Assembly (NCBI RefSeq): GCF_010681825.2
Contig: NZ_CP066776.1
Coordinates: forward strand, 930,001-994,000
Source of the DNA: Sulfuriroseicoccus oceanibius
GTDB taxonomy: Bacteria; Verrucomicrobiota; Verrucomicrobiia; Verrucomicrobiales; SLCJ01
DNA: 64,000 nt
Direction: 5' to 3'
The first letter of the stretch is position 1. Every line of letters begins with the position of its first letter. Shown piece after piece: positions 27,932 through 59,166 of the stretch. Under the pieces are notes generated by a model, which had not been told where the DNA came from, made no database searches, and saw only the letters and a program-made list of their open reading frames with translations. The translations under genes were made by a program, and so were the position numbers.

Positions 27932-27937
27932 GGTCTA

Positions 27938-28137
27938 ATACTATTTGAGCGGTCAAATTGGCGGGATGGCGGAGAGCTTTCTCGAGTGAGGCAAGGCGCG
28001 AACTGCGATGCGGGCTGCCTGATCGGCGAGCAACGCTGCATCACTCAAAAAGATCCCGCCAAGATCACATTCTTCATCTCTGATTCTCCTCACTCAATCC
28101 CCATTGGTTACGCCAAGGCGACCCTTCGATCTGGAGT
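27938..28137 (-). mobile_element. Fold-back MITE-like element, family B, copy 1 (degraded)
   Basis: This is the reverse-complement orientation of the elements at 45056-45258 and 58863-59065. It begins ATACTATTTGAGCGGTCA (terminal repeat with substitutions), then the conserved body (GGCGGGATGGCGGAGAGC ... AACGCTGCATCACTC ... GATCCCGCCAAGATCA). The right terminal repeat (GCGACCCTTCGATC) is badly decayed. It carries no gene. It is the most diverged of the three copies. Confidence 0.8.
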
Positions 28138-43892: not shown

Positions 43893-45056
43893 ATGCGAAT
43901 AGGATTGGCTCGACGAGGATATTCTGCGAGCGGGGGGGCGGAACGTTTTTTGTTGCGCTTCGCCGAGGGCTTGCGTGCTGCTGGACACGAACCTGTGTTT
44001 TGTGTAGACCGTGCATGGCGCAAGGCCGGCTTGAAATCGGACGAAGTGGTTTGGTTGGACGGGATGACGCCGCTTACCTTTGCCAACACGATGCGGCAGA
44101 CGCTGGCGACCGACGTTTGCGATTGCCTTTTCAGTCTTGAGCGAGGGTGGGCGTGTGACGTGTACCGAGCCGGGGACGGAGTGCACAAGGCCTGGCTGGA
44201 CCGTCGCAGTGCATTCGAGCCATCTTATAAGTCTTGGTTCCGCGCTATTCAGAGCAAGCACAGGGCAATGATGCGGTTGGAAGCCTCGTTGCTCGGAGAC
44301 ACCAGCCACTGCCCTGCCGTGGTGGTGAACTCAAAGATGGTGGCGAAAGAAATCGCCGAGCATTATCCTGACCGCGATCCTGATAGCGTGCACCTCGTCT
44401 ACAATGGCTACGATCCGGTGGTGGAGCCTGAGACCTTGGATCGGGCGGCGATGCGCGCGGAGGTGCGCCGCGAACTCGGGATTTCCGACCAGGAGAAGGT
44501 GGTGCTTTTTGTCGGCTCCGGTTGGGAGCGGAAGGGGCTGCCGGACTTGATCAAGGCTTCCTCCGGACAGAACTGCCGCTTGGTGGTTGCTGGGCGCGGA
44601 CGGATGCGCTCCGAATGGAAAGGTCGGAAGCAAGTGACCTTTCTGGGGCCGCGCAAGGATGTCGCTCGCTTGTTGATGATGGCGGATGTGTTCGCACTGC
44701 CGACGTATTATGATCCATTTTCGAACGCGACACTCGAGGCGGCGCGTCACGGGCTTCCGGTGATTACCACGACAGCCAATGGGTTCCACGAAGTGATGAC
44801 CGAAGGTGTGCACGGCTCGGCCGTGGATGCCGGTGACGTGAGTGCCTTGGCGGCGGCAATTGATCACTGGGCCACGCTTGAGAACGACGATACTGTGTTC
44901 TCGCGTTGCCTGGAGAATGTGAAGCCCTTCACCATCGACCGCAACGTGAGCGAAACGTTGAAGGTTGTGGCCAATGCGGATCGCGTGGGGCTCGGCGTGG
45001 CCACCGCGGGGAATCCCACCCCGGTCGGTAGCCCGCAAACGATCTGGCGCAGCTGA
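43893..45056 (+). CDS. Glycosyltransferase family 4 (WaaG-like)
   Basis: This 387-residue protein opens with M-R-I-G-L-A-R-R-G-Y-S-A-S-G-G-A-E-R-F, as in WaaG-type core glucosyltransferases, then S-L-E-R-G-W-A-C-D-V-Y-R-A-G-D-G-V-H. The donor-binding half has L-F-V-G-S-G-W-E-R-K-G and P-T-Y-Y-D-P-F-S-N-A-T-L-E-A. It likely adds a hexose to the lipopolysaccharide inner core. The stop codon abuts a family B MITE, whose first base is the last base of the stop codon. ATG 43893 is preferred over an ATG at 43878. Confidence 0.9.
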   Translation: MRIGLARRGYSASGGAERFLLRFAEGLRAAGHEPVFCVDRAWRKAGLKSDEVVWLDGMTPLTFANTMRQTLATDVCDCLFSLERGWACDVYRAGDGVHKAWLDRRSAFEPSYKSWFRAIQSKHRAMMRLEASLLGDTSHCPAVVVNSKMVAKEIAEHYPDRDPDSVHLVYNGYDPVVEPETLDRAAMRAEVRRELGISDQEKVVLFVGSGWERKGLPDLIKASSGQNCRLVVAGRGRMRSEWKGRKQVTFLGPRKDVARLLMMADVFALPTYYDPFSNATLEAARHGLPVITTTANGFHEVMTEGVHGSAVDAGDVSALAAAIDHWATLENDDTVFSRCLENVKPFTIDRNVSETLKVVANADRVGLGVATAGNPTPVGSPQTIWRS

Positions 45057-45258
45057 TACCATTTGAACGGCCACCTTGGCGTAACCGATGGGAATTGAAT
45101 GAGAAGGATCAGAGATGGGGAAAGTGATTTTGGCGGGATCTTTTTGAGTGATGCTGCGTTGCTCACAGCTCAGGTAGCCCGCTAGCATCGCGGTTCGCGC
45201 CTTGCTTCACTCGAAAAAGCTCTCCGCCATTCCGCCAATTTGACCGTTCAAATGGTAT
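45056..45258 (+). mobile_element. Fold-back MITE-like element, family B, copy 2
   Basis: This 203-bp element has terminal inverted repeats ATACCATTTGAACGG ... CCGTTCAAATGGTAT, perfect over 15 bp. A subterminal inverted repeat (GGCGGGATCTTTTTGAGTGA against the complement of TCACTCGAAAAAGCTCTCCGCC) lets most of the element fold back on itself. It encodes no protein. Copy 3 at 58863-59065 has the same length; copy 1 at 27938-28137 is reversed and decayed. It begins at the last base of the upstream stop codon and ends 13 bp before the HAD gene. No clear target-site duplication was found. Confidence 0.88.
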
Positions 45259-45271
45259 AAGCGCCGATCGG

Positions 45272-45985: not shown

Positions 45986-46024
45986 CAAAAAAGTGCCCGC
46001 TTGATCGGCAGACCAGAGCGGGCG
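45986..46024 (-). terminator. Rho-independent terminator after infC
   Basis: Read on the minus strand, GCCCGCT pairs with AGCGGGC across a loop of about 16 nt, followed by ACTTTTTTG. It lies about 30 nt after the infC stop. Confidence 0.8.
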
Positions 46025-46052: not shown

Positions 46053-46676
46053 TTACGCGTCGTCGCCCTCGTCATCGTCGTCCTCTTCAGGGAGGTCTTC
46101 GGCCTTGTACTTGGAGAACTTGCGGACGCGCTGCTGTTCAGGCAGAGGGGAGAGCATCATGGTGATGTTACGTCCTGCCTGGCGTGGCTGGAAGTCGACC
46201 GCGGCCATGCCTTTAAGGTCTTCGATCACGCGCTTCATCAAGGCCATGCCGAGTTCCGGGTGGGCCATTTCGCGGCCGCGGAACTGAAGTTGGCAGTGCA
46301 GCTTGTTGCCTTCGTCGAGGAACGACTCGGCGCGAGCGAGTTTCATGGTGTAGTCGTGCTCTTCGATACGCGGGCGGAATTTGACTTCCTTGGTGCGTTG
46401 TTGCTTGGACTTTTTCTTGTCCTTCTTGAGCTTAGACTGTTCGTACTTCCACTTGCCGTAGTCGCAGATGCGGCAAACCGGTGGGTTGGCGTTGGATGCC
46501 ACCTCCACCAGATCGAGTCCCATTTCCTTGGCCTTCTGCACAGCGGCACGCGTTTGCATGACTCCGAGCTGGTCGCCGGTGGTTCCGTCGACTACTCGAA
46601 CTTTGCTGACGCGGATGCGCTCGTTGACGCGCGTCTCCTCTCGGCGTCCTCTTCTTTTGAATGGTGGCTTGGCTAT
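46053..46676 (-). CDS. infC: Translation initiation factor IF-3, probable AUA start
   Basis: This is 207 residues when started at ATA 46676, giving (M)-A-K-P-P-F-K-R-R-G-R-R-E-E-T-R-V-N-E-R-I. The conserved IF-3 N-domain (R-V-N-E-R-I-R-V-x-x-V-R-V-V) begins 16 residues in. Between an in-frame TAA (46700 or so) and the internal ATG 46559 no ATG, GTG, TTG or CTG exists, so a canonical start would delete the N-domain core. E. coli infC also uses a non-canonical start (AUU), which underlies its autoregulation. The C-domain is normal and ends in an acidic tail (E-D-D-D-D-E-G-D-D-A). thrS lies 91 bp upstream; rpmI and rplT do not follow. Confidence 0.93.
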   Translation of the reverse strand: MAKPPFKRRGRREETRVNERIRVSKVRVVDGTTGDQLGVMQTRAAVQKAKEMGLDLVEVASNANPPVCRICDYGKWKYEQSKLKKDKKKSKQQRTKEVKFRPRIEEHDYTMKLARAESFLDEGNKLHCQLQFRGREMAHPELGMALMKRVIEDLKGMAAVDFQPRQAGRNITMMLSPLPEQQRVRKFSKYKAEDLPEEDDDDEGDDA

Positions 46677-46767
46677 AACTCGTGGATGTTTTGGTTCTTA
46701 AAATTGGGGCGGCTCGGGCGACGAATCGCGCGGCCGCTCCCGGTGTGGTTGGTTCCCTCTAAATAAC

Positions 46768-48633
46768 TTACAGGGAACGCTCGGAAATCTCTGTCTGAAT
46801 CGACGAGATGAACTCATCGACCGCTTGTGTGCCGAGATCGCCTTTGCGTGAGTGGCGCACCGAGACCTGGTTGGCTTCAGCTTCGCGCTCACCGACGACC
46901 AACATGTAAGGAACTTTATCGAGCTGAGCAAGGCGAATTTTGGCCCCGACCTTGTCTGGCGATTTGTCGAGAACGACGCGGACGCCGGCTTCCTTGAGTG
47001 TGGCCTCGGTCTGTTGTGCGAAATCCATCACTTTGTCCGAGATCGGAAGGATACGGACTTGTTCCGGTGCAAGCCAGGTCGGGAAGTGACCGGCGAAATG
47101 CTCGATCAACAATCCAGTGAAGCGCTCAAGTGATCCGAATGGCGCACGGTGGATCATGACTGGGCGGTGCTTGTTGTTATCCGACCCGATGTACGAGATG
47201 TCGAAGCGCTCTGGAAGGTTGTAGTCGACCTGAACGGTTCCGAGCTGCCACTCGCGGCCGATGACGTCGCTGACGACGAAGTCGATCTTTGGTCCGTAGA
47301 AGGCGGCTTCGCCAAGTTCTTCGGTGTAGTCGACGTCGAGCGACTCGACGGCTTCGCGCAGGGCGGCCTCTGCTTTGTCCCAGTTGGCCGGGTCACCGAC
47401 GTACTTGTCGCTGTCCGGATCGCGGAGGGACAGGCGCACGCGGTAATCGTTCATGCCGAGGGTTGCGAGTACGGTTTTGACCAATCCCAGGCAGCCCTGG
47501 ATTTCTTCCGCTACCTGGTCTGATGTGCAGAAAATGTGGGCGTCGTCCTGGGTGAACCCGCGGACGCGGGTCATTCCGCCAAGCTCGCCGGACTGCTCCC
47601 AGCGGTAGACGGTGCCGAACTCAGCCAGGCGCACAGGTAGGTCGCGGTACGAGCGTGGTTCGCTGTCGAAAATCTTGATGTGGTGCGGGCAGTTCATCGG
47701 CTTCAGGAGGAAGCCTTCGATGTCGCCGGACTCGAGGTGGTTGTGCAGTTCGGCGCAGGTGCAGCCTTCGTCCGCGAGGCGCTTGATGTTGTCGCGCTCG
47801 ATCACCGGTGGGTACTGGCTGTCCTGGTAGTACGGGAAGTGTCCGCTGGTGCGATAGAGGTCGAGTTTGCCGATGTGCGGGGTGAAGACCTGGAAGTACC
47901 CCTGTTTGTCGAGGGCACTGCCAATGAAGTCCTGCAGCTCGCGGCGGATGATGCCGCCCTTTGGCTTCCACAGAATGAGACCTTGGCCGACGGCTTCGTC
48001 GATGGCGAAGAGGTTCATCTCTCGACCGAGTTTGCGGTGGTCGCGCTTTTTGGCCTCTTCGAGTTTCTCGAGGTAGTCGTCGAGCAGAGTACGGTTCTTG
48101 AAGCAGGTGCCGTAGATGCGCTGGACCGACTGGTTGTTTTGGTCACCCTTGTAGTAGGCGGCGGCGACGGACATGACCTTGAAGGCTTTGCAGTTGCCGG
48201 TGCGGCCAACGTGTGGGCCGGCGCAGAGGTCGATGAACTCACCATTCTGGAAGAGCGAGATTTCTTCGTCCTCCGGGATGTCGTCGATCATGTCGAGCTT
48301 GAAGGTGGACTCGACATCGCGCTCGCTGAGAGCGCCGAGGCGGCCCGACTTGGCGAGGGCCTTGGCTTCGTCGCGGGTGACGGTGACGCGTTCGAAGGTC
48401 TGGTTTTCTTTGACCACCTTCTTCATTTCCTTTTCGATCTGCTCGAAGTCCGCCGGTGTGATGGCGTGGTCGAGGTCGATATCGTAGTAGAAGCCGTTGT
48501 CGACCGGAGGTCCGCCAGCGAGCTGGGCGTTTGGCCAGATTCGGAGGATGGCGGTGGCAAGGACGTGTGCGCAGGAGTGGCGGAGCCGTTCGAGGTCGGT
48601 CATCTGGTTGCGCTCATCGAGTGTCTTTCGCAT
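46768..48633 (-). CDS. thrS: Threonyl-tRNA synthetase (no TGS domain)
   Basis: This 621-residue protein starts almost directly with the editing domain (R-H-S-C-A-H-V-L-A, whose His residues are metal ligands, and D-L-C-A-G-P-H). The N-terminal ~60-residue TGS domain of E. coli ThrRS is missing. The class II core has P-M-N-C-P-H-H, R-x-E-x-x-E-type segments and V-R-G-F-T-Q-D-D-A-H-I-F. The C-terminal anticodon-binding domain is present. Relative to E. coli there is an extra segment of about 25 residues before the K-P-M-N-C-P motif (E-R-D-N-I ... S-G-D-I-E-G-F). ThrRS charges tRNA-Thr. It precedes infC, the usual order. Confidence 0.95.
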   Translation of the reverse strand: MRKTLDERNQMTDLERLRHSCAHVLATAILRIWPNAQLAGGPPVDNGFYYDIDLDHAITPADFEQIEKEMKKVVKENQTFERVTVTRDEAKALAKSGRLGALSERDVESTFKLDMIDDIPEDEEISLFQNGEFIDLCAGPHVGRTGNCKAFKVMSVAAAYYKGDQNNQSVQRIYGTCFKNRTLLDDYLEKLEEAKKRDHRKLGREMNLFAIDEAVGQGLILWKPKGGIIRRELQDFIGSALDKQGYFQVFTPHIGKLDLYRTSGHFPYYQDSQYPPVIERDNIKRLADEGCTCAELHNHLESGDIEGFLLKPMNCPHHIKIFDSEPRSYRDLPVRLAEFGTVYRWEQSGELGGMTRVRGFTQDDAHIFCTSDQVAEEIQGCLGLVKTVLATLGMNDYRVRLSLRDPDSDKYVGDPANWDKAEAALREAVESLDVDYTEELGEAAFYGPKIDFVVSDVIGREWQLGTVQVDYNLPERFDISYIGSDNNKHRPVMIHRAPFGSLERFTGLLIEHFAGHFPTWLAPEQVRILPISDKVMDFAQQTEATLKEAGVRVVLDKSPDKVGAKIRLAQLDKVPYMLVVGEREAEANQVSVRHSRKGDLGTQAVDEFISSIQTEISERSL

Positions 48634-58862: not shown

Positions 58863-59065
58863 ATACCATTTAACCGGTCACCTTGTCGGAATCGATGGGG
58901 ATTCGACTGGTGGTAGATGGAGTGAAGAAAGTGATCTTGGCGGGATCTTTTTGAGTGATGCTGCGTTGCTCACAGCTCAGTTAGCCCGCTAGCATCGCGG
59001 TTCGCGCCTTGCCTCACTCGAAAAAGCTCTCCGCCATTCCGCCAATTCGACCGTTCAATTGGTAT
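58863..59065 (+). mobile_element. Fold-back MITE-like element, family B, copy 3
   Basis: This 203-bp element has the same length and orientation as copy 2. Terminal repeats are ATACCATTTAACCGG ... CCGTTCAATTGGTAT, with a few substitutions each. The core (GGCGGGATCTTTTTGAGTGATG ... CACTCGAAAAAGCTCTCCGCC) is near-identical to copy 2. The left third is the most diverged part. It lies between the GT9 gene and the PEP-CTERM gene and contains no ORF of its own. Confidence 0.88.
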
Positions 59066-59166
59066 TAGGGTAGTTGTGTGCGTCCCTTGAGGTGGCGCAT
59101 GACGTAGCCGGTTGTTGGGCGATCTCTTCTCCAGAGATCGTCTGCTAACACCAACAACCCCAACTC

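Follow-up and report, generated by a model that had tools for sequence, protein, structure and literature searches.

A probable AUA start codon for infC in Sulfuriroseicoccus oceanibius and the distribution of AUH starts in its phylum

The infC locus

The window analysed here is a stretch of 64,000 nucleotides from Sulfuriroseicoccus oceanibius, a member of the Verrucomicrobiales. It contains infC, the gene for translation initiation factor IF-3 (IF3), downstream of thrS on the minus strand. Start codons of the kinds AUA, AUC and AUU are together called AUH. The locus is organized as follows.

46053..46676, minus strand: infC coding sequence (IF-3), 207 codons plus stop, with matches to TIGR00168 and to Pfam IF3_N and IF3_C
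46674..46676, minus strand: putative AUA start codon, the only AUH, with zero canonical codons, between the in-frame stop and the N-domain
46698..46700, minus strand: in-frame TAA that limits the possible N-terminus, the frame being open from here
46557..46559, minus strand: internal ATG at residue 40, the choice of mechanical ORF calling, which would truncate the N-domain
46677..46767, minus strand: leader of 91 nt from the thrS stop to the AUA, with neither a Shine-Dalgarno (SD) sequence nor an ATG
46706..46741, minus strand: G+C-rich hairpin in the leader, predicted by folding the window's sequence alone
46768..48633, minus strand: thrS, upstream of infC, named by eye
45995..46013, minus strand: terminator-like site after infC, weak because 2 such sites were found in the region against a mean of 1.5 in shuffles

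The infC product scores 194 bits against TIGR00168, above the cut-off, over residues 12-177 of 207, and both Pfam domains are matched, IF3_N at residues 17-86. It is the single match in the genome, which consists of one contig of 3.5 Mb. After the TAA at 46698-46700 the codons read GAA CCA AAA CAT CCA CGA GTT ATA GCC AAG and onwards; ATG, GTG, TTG and CTG are all absent in frame from this stop to the RVNERI of the IF3 N-domain, and the ATA at 46674-46676 is the single AUH codon of the interval. Re-reading the frame from the sequence returned the same coordinates, frame and residues as the original prediction, and agreed with its claims that canonical codons are lacking upstream and that the frame is open to the TAA.

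The first in-frame ATG (46559) lies within the N-domain, and the mechanical ORF listing that begins there yields an ORF of 168 aa. Gene callers limited to ATG, GTG and TTG would therefore cut into the N-domain in the window. The PDB chain 5me0_Z (IF3, 144 residues), which we take to be an E. coli chain, starts at the residue aligned with infC residue 40; we suspect the same kind of truncation as in the ORF call. Two arginines that are important in E. coli IF3, R112 and R116, align with A and S in the infC product.

Leader and gene neighborhood

The 16S rRNA of the genome ends ...GGATCACCTCCTTT, and its duplex with the infC leader has an energy of +2.4 kcal/mol, which amounts to no SD and bears out the earlier remark that the upstream ribosome site is weak. 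An SD is a usual, though not strictly defining, trait of an AUH-start infC and is absent in the window. The corresponding energies are -4.9 kcal/mol in a genome of the same genus and -7.4 kcal/mol in one of the same family, both starting with ATA. The leader of the same-genus gene is 124 nt long and unlike that of the window in sequence. Probably, an AUA site of this kind would rely on an open leader. Among 41 long ORFs of the window, whose starts are unverified, 4 of 33 first-ATG starts have an SD at or below -5 kcal/mol, compared with 39% of random places in the window, coding DNA included. The genome may be SD-poor; these figures give a hint and no more, since the ORF starts are unverified and the random places include coding DNA.

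The C-terminus of thrS lies upstream of infC on the same strand at 58 of 87 loci of the order; it is absent at 11 that have at least 1.2 kb of upstream sequence, and 18 are too short to tell. In E. coli, too, thrS lies upstream of infC. Two Rfam matches were obtained in the thrS-infC region, both far under the gathering score. The gene downstream of infC in the window resembles, by eye, a HAD-type hydrolase. The gene order infC-rpmI-rplT is known from other bacteria; rplT is here at G000:C1:3201440-3201760, more than 1 Mb from infC either way round the chromosome, so this order is broken in the present genome.

Start codons in the order

Of 288 genomes of the order that were searched, 280 were found to have infC, and 107 of these were read. 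They were drawn from the better-scoring matches listed, so that distant members of the order are under-represented. Starts were assigned by eye and afterwards located by script. In the first set 88 genomes were read and 87 assigned (AUA 29, AUC 22, AUU 18, GUG 18, AUG 0). A further 20, comprising 19 new genomes and an earlier unassigned one (G107) that could be assigned once more upstream DNA was included, gave AUA 10, AUC 9 and GUG 1. In total, the order has AUH in 88 of 107 genomes (AUA 39, AUC 31, AUU 18), GUG in 19 and AUG in 0.

The alignment across the phylum that had been proposed as a check returns ATA at the start codon in all 3 family genomes compared, one of them another member of the genus, and AUH in most of the order genomes read. 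Relatives with a normal ATG at the site, which the original prediction had named as the contrary case, number 0 of 107 in the order; beyond it, AUG, UUG or GUG occurs in several clades of the class. The infC start region of the same-family genome G001 (L003) equals that of a Verrucomicrobiales MAG (L032).

AUA is more frequent at the start of infC than chance would give. It accounts for 29 of the 69 AUH starts of the first set and for 11 of 712 internal isoleucine codons of the same genes (Fisher p 6e-25, with relatedness ignored). In 30 long ORFs of the window, it makes up 11 of 685 isoleucine codons. Of the 69 AUH starts, 41 have an SD at or below -5 kcal/mol in front of them, as do 12.5% of the 1914 windows of upstream background; coding DNA gives a smaller contrast, and the difference depends on the background chosen, given that random places in the window reach this energy so often. 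Several AUH starts have GGAGG at the usual distance. The other 28 lack an SD of -5 kcal/mol, and SD-less AUH lineages other than that of the window exist.

Onset of coding constraint

Base changes were counted over 25 pairs of closely related genomes of the order, each made of a genome and its nearest partner with equal tail length and 70-98% identity, some genomes being reused. The codon periodicity of these changes starts at the AUH and is absent before it. After the AUH, differences at codon positions 1/2/3 number 27/27/169 (1548 nt), whereas the preceding 30 nt give 94/91/97. When 16 disjoint pairs are used, the counts are 16/14/118 after and 60/60/62 before. The shift is visible codon by codon: 15/12/23 at codons -4 to -3, 8/13/13 at -2 to -1, 2/1/10 at +1 to +2 and 1/2/19 at +3 to +4. 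Taken together with the homologous AUH in 88 of 107 genomes, this onset agrees with the proposal that the ATA at 46676 opens a protein beginning M-A-K-P-P-F-K-R-R-G. On such comparative evidence, translation of infC very probably does start at the AUA at 46674-46676.

Evolution of the third base

The third base of the start was placed on a quick tree of the IF3 body, which covers the order only, is unrooted and leaves 22 of 79 inner branches open. On this tree, at least 15 changes among A, C and U are required, and G is found in 0 of 69 genomes. When just the well-supported branches are counted, the minimum is 6 changes for AUA, 5 for AUC and 3 for AUU, with overlap among these numbers. Assuming a one-third chance that any change gives G, simple arithmetic on the quick tree puts the probability of zero G in 15 changes at (2/3)^15, or about 0.002. 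A single transition would turn AUA into AUG, and the absence of AUG from the genomes read therefore speaks for selection against it. The free exchange of A, C and U without G appears to point to selection for rejection by IF3.

All 19 GUG genomes belong to one genus (g3; for example L126, L157 and L178), which we suspect to be Akkermansia. The start reads GTG-CCN in 19 of 19, without a clear SD, and GUG corresponds to one change on the IF3-body tree (support 99). An AUH stands two codons past the GTG in 8 of the 19 (ATC 6, ATA 1, ATT 1), with none there in the other 11. As these 8 genomes keep an AUH, the GUG of this genus is itself an assignment; for them, a GUG start is the better reading, though not the sole one.

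Wider class and phylum

Outside the order, infC was read in 82 of 115 genomes of the class and, outside the class, in 39 of 96 genomes of the phylum, with roughly one or two genomes from each family in both groups. Two mechanical rules were applied. Under the first, the candidate with the best SD was taken if it reached -6 kcal/mol or better. This rule selects AUH in 52 of 88 genomes of the order (GTG 5, ATG 1, no candidate 30), in 26 of 82 in the rest of the class (TTG 13, GTG 1, no candidate 42) and in 34 of 39 in the rest of the phylum (TTG 2, no candidate 3). It misfires in part, with some AUH and TTG picks falling in class families that look like TTG or ATG starters (for example G381, G363, G379 and G353). 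The second rule counted genomes with no ATG, GTG or TTG between the in-frame stop and the N-domain, and found 19 of 88 in the order, 27 of 82 in the class and 15 of 39 in the other phylum genomes. These numbers are depressed by a GTG, a TTG or the ATG of an R-R-D-M motif, which is often present in the tail or upstream frame; in addition, the anchor is misplaced in some distant rows.

A start of the form TTG-Ser-(Arg/Gln)-Pro is common to 16 genomes of the class from 15 families (f11, f16, f20, f22, f24, f27, f28, f30, f32, f35, f38, f40, f43, f46, f48) and would be a further replacement of AUH. An ATG start is found in class families f13, f17 and f44. Outside the class, AUH behind strong SD sites is the rule. 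With AUH so regular there and starts mixed inside the class, AUH looks like the ancestral state, later replaced several times; this direction is our reading of the distribution. Loci from other phyla were mostly those of Caulobacterales, with an ATT start of infC.

Initiation and control

We consider it probable, at roughly 70%, that infC of the window starts at AUA, is read by the initiator fMet-tRNA and is under start-codon autocontrol by IF3. The initiator would read the AUA at 46676 by a third-position mismatch. IF3 would remove initiation complexes on AUH-type codons, and as a consequence high IF3 would lower its own synthesis; this would be the autocontrol of the AUU-start infC of E. coli, with AUA in place of AUU. 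For the phylum at large, autoregulation is likewise inferred. Several observations weigh against this model: the SD-less leader of the window (+2.4 kcal/mol) is unexpected for a weak codon, clades of the class do with UUG, GUG or AUG, and the residues aligned with R112 and R116 of E. coli IF3 are A and S.

An AUA start could instead set a low, constant level of IF3, with no feedback in this lineage. We judge this unlikely, though it is the most serious of the alternatives. It accommodates the clades of the class that use UUG, GUG or AUG, in which feedback through AUH must be dispensable, and likewise the genus of the order to which GUG is assigned. A constant level does not readily explain why 15 changes among A, C and U include none to G, a pattern that fits a class of codons rejected by IF3 and not one codon strength, and PMC5472188 states that the infC of E. 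coli is subject to feedback.

The remaining alternatives dispute the start itself. The most resistant, and already very improbable, holds that translation in relatives carrying R-R-D-M-T-R-V-N-E truly begins at the ATG directly ahead of the N-domain, the AUH being accidental. Such an ATG lies at most 8 codons from the N-domain in 32 of the 69 AUH genomes, 13 of which have an AUH whose SD does not exceed that of the ATG in strength. The mean SD is -4.4 kcal/mol for the AUH and -1.8 for the ATG, and the window and two other genomes of its family do not have this ATG. Differences in the stretch from AUH to ATG fall 14/19/67 by codon position (17 pairs); a stretch with such coding periodicity makes the ATG an unlikely start in those pairs, and this candidate was rejected. 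Translation from the internal ATG at 46559, which would yield an IF3 lacking the beginning of its N-domain, is less credible again. This ATG is the first canonical codon in frame; IF3_N, however, begins at residue 17 and the ATG is residue 40, so that it cuts the domain, and in the order coding constraint extends to the codons that precede the N-domain. It was rejected on both counts. Least plausible of all is an assembly or base error concealing an ordinary ATG, which was dismissed because ATA recurs at this codon in independent genomes from the genus and the family, and 88 of 107 order genomes are assigned an AUH.

If the AUA start with autocontrol by IF3 is extended to the phylum, its infC start might be an ancestral feedback switch with the rule "any AUH, never AUG", SD-less in some lineages, and clades with UUG, GUG or AUG would have lost or rebuilt the feedback. 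We offer this wider reading tentatively and with some doubt. Were it true, the phylum would offer a natural set of lineages in which to ask why IF3 is under this kind of control.

Relation to known systems

AUH-start infC is a kind of gene that is already known, including with AUA. In Staphylococcus aureus, ribosomes are located at an AUA start of infC by Ribo-Ret, and the authors consider autoregulation likely (PMC13009471). The gene and the AUA codon are the same as in the window; the phylum is another, and the authors predict an extended SD, in contrast to the leader of the window, which has none. The original prediction had suggested that an AUA start would extend the mechanism to another rare codon: an AUA infC is indeed found here, whereas its novelty does not stand in view of this precedent.

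The infC of E. coli starts with ATT and is autoregulated (PMC5472188), as the original prediction had stated for enterobacteria. It shares an AUH-class start with the window and differs in its codon, AUU and not AUA, and in that autoregulation is established there and inferred here. The AUU that marks the E. coli type of autoregulated infC is accordingly replaced by AUA at this locus. The Streptomyces gene starts with ATC, and its authors note misannotation of infC starts; it has an AUH start in common with the window, with a different phylum and codon (PMC5472188). The same paper reports Streptomyces sigR, which starts with GTC and for which repression by IF3 was demonstrated. Bacillus subtilis (PMC6097659) and Listeria (PMC13068326) likewise share an AUH start of infC, but with ATT.

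Within the open-licence literature, we found no publication on the infC start codon in Verrucomicrobiota. What is new here, as read from sequence comparison, is the apparent conservation of AUH across the phylum, the exchange within the order of A, C and U, G being absent, and the clades with UUG, GUG or AUG. infC is an essential gene, and these results correct its start in an order where gene callers that accept only ATG, GTG and TTG would put it in the wrong place. They also identify sister clades whose starts are canonical and which lend themselves to a test for loss of feedback.

A repeat element in the window

A non-coding, MITE-like element of about 208 bp lies at 45052-45262 of the window and also at 27935-28127 and 58863-59068. 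It has no Rfam match at gathering score. Its terminal inverted arms are 33 nt long and 85% complementary. The genome holds 41 matches to the element, itself included, of which 26 are near full length at an identity of at least 81%.
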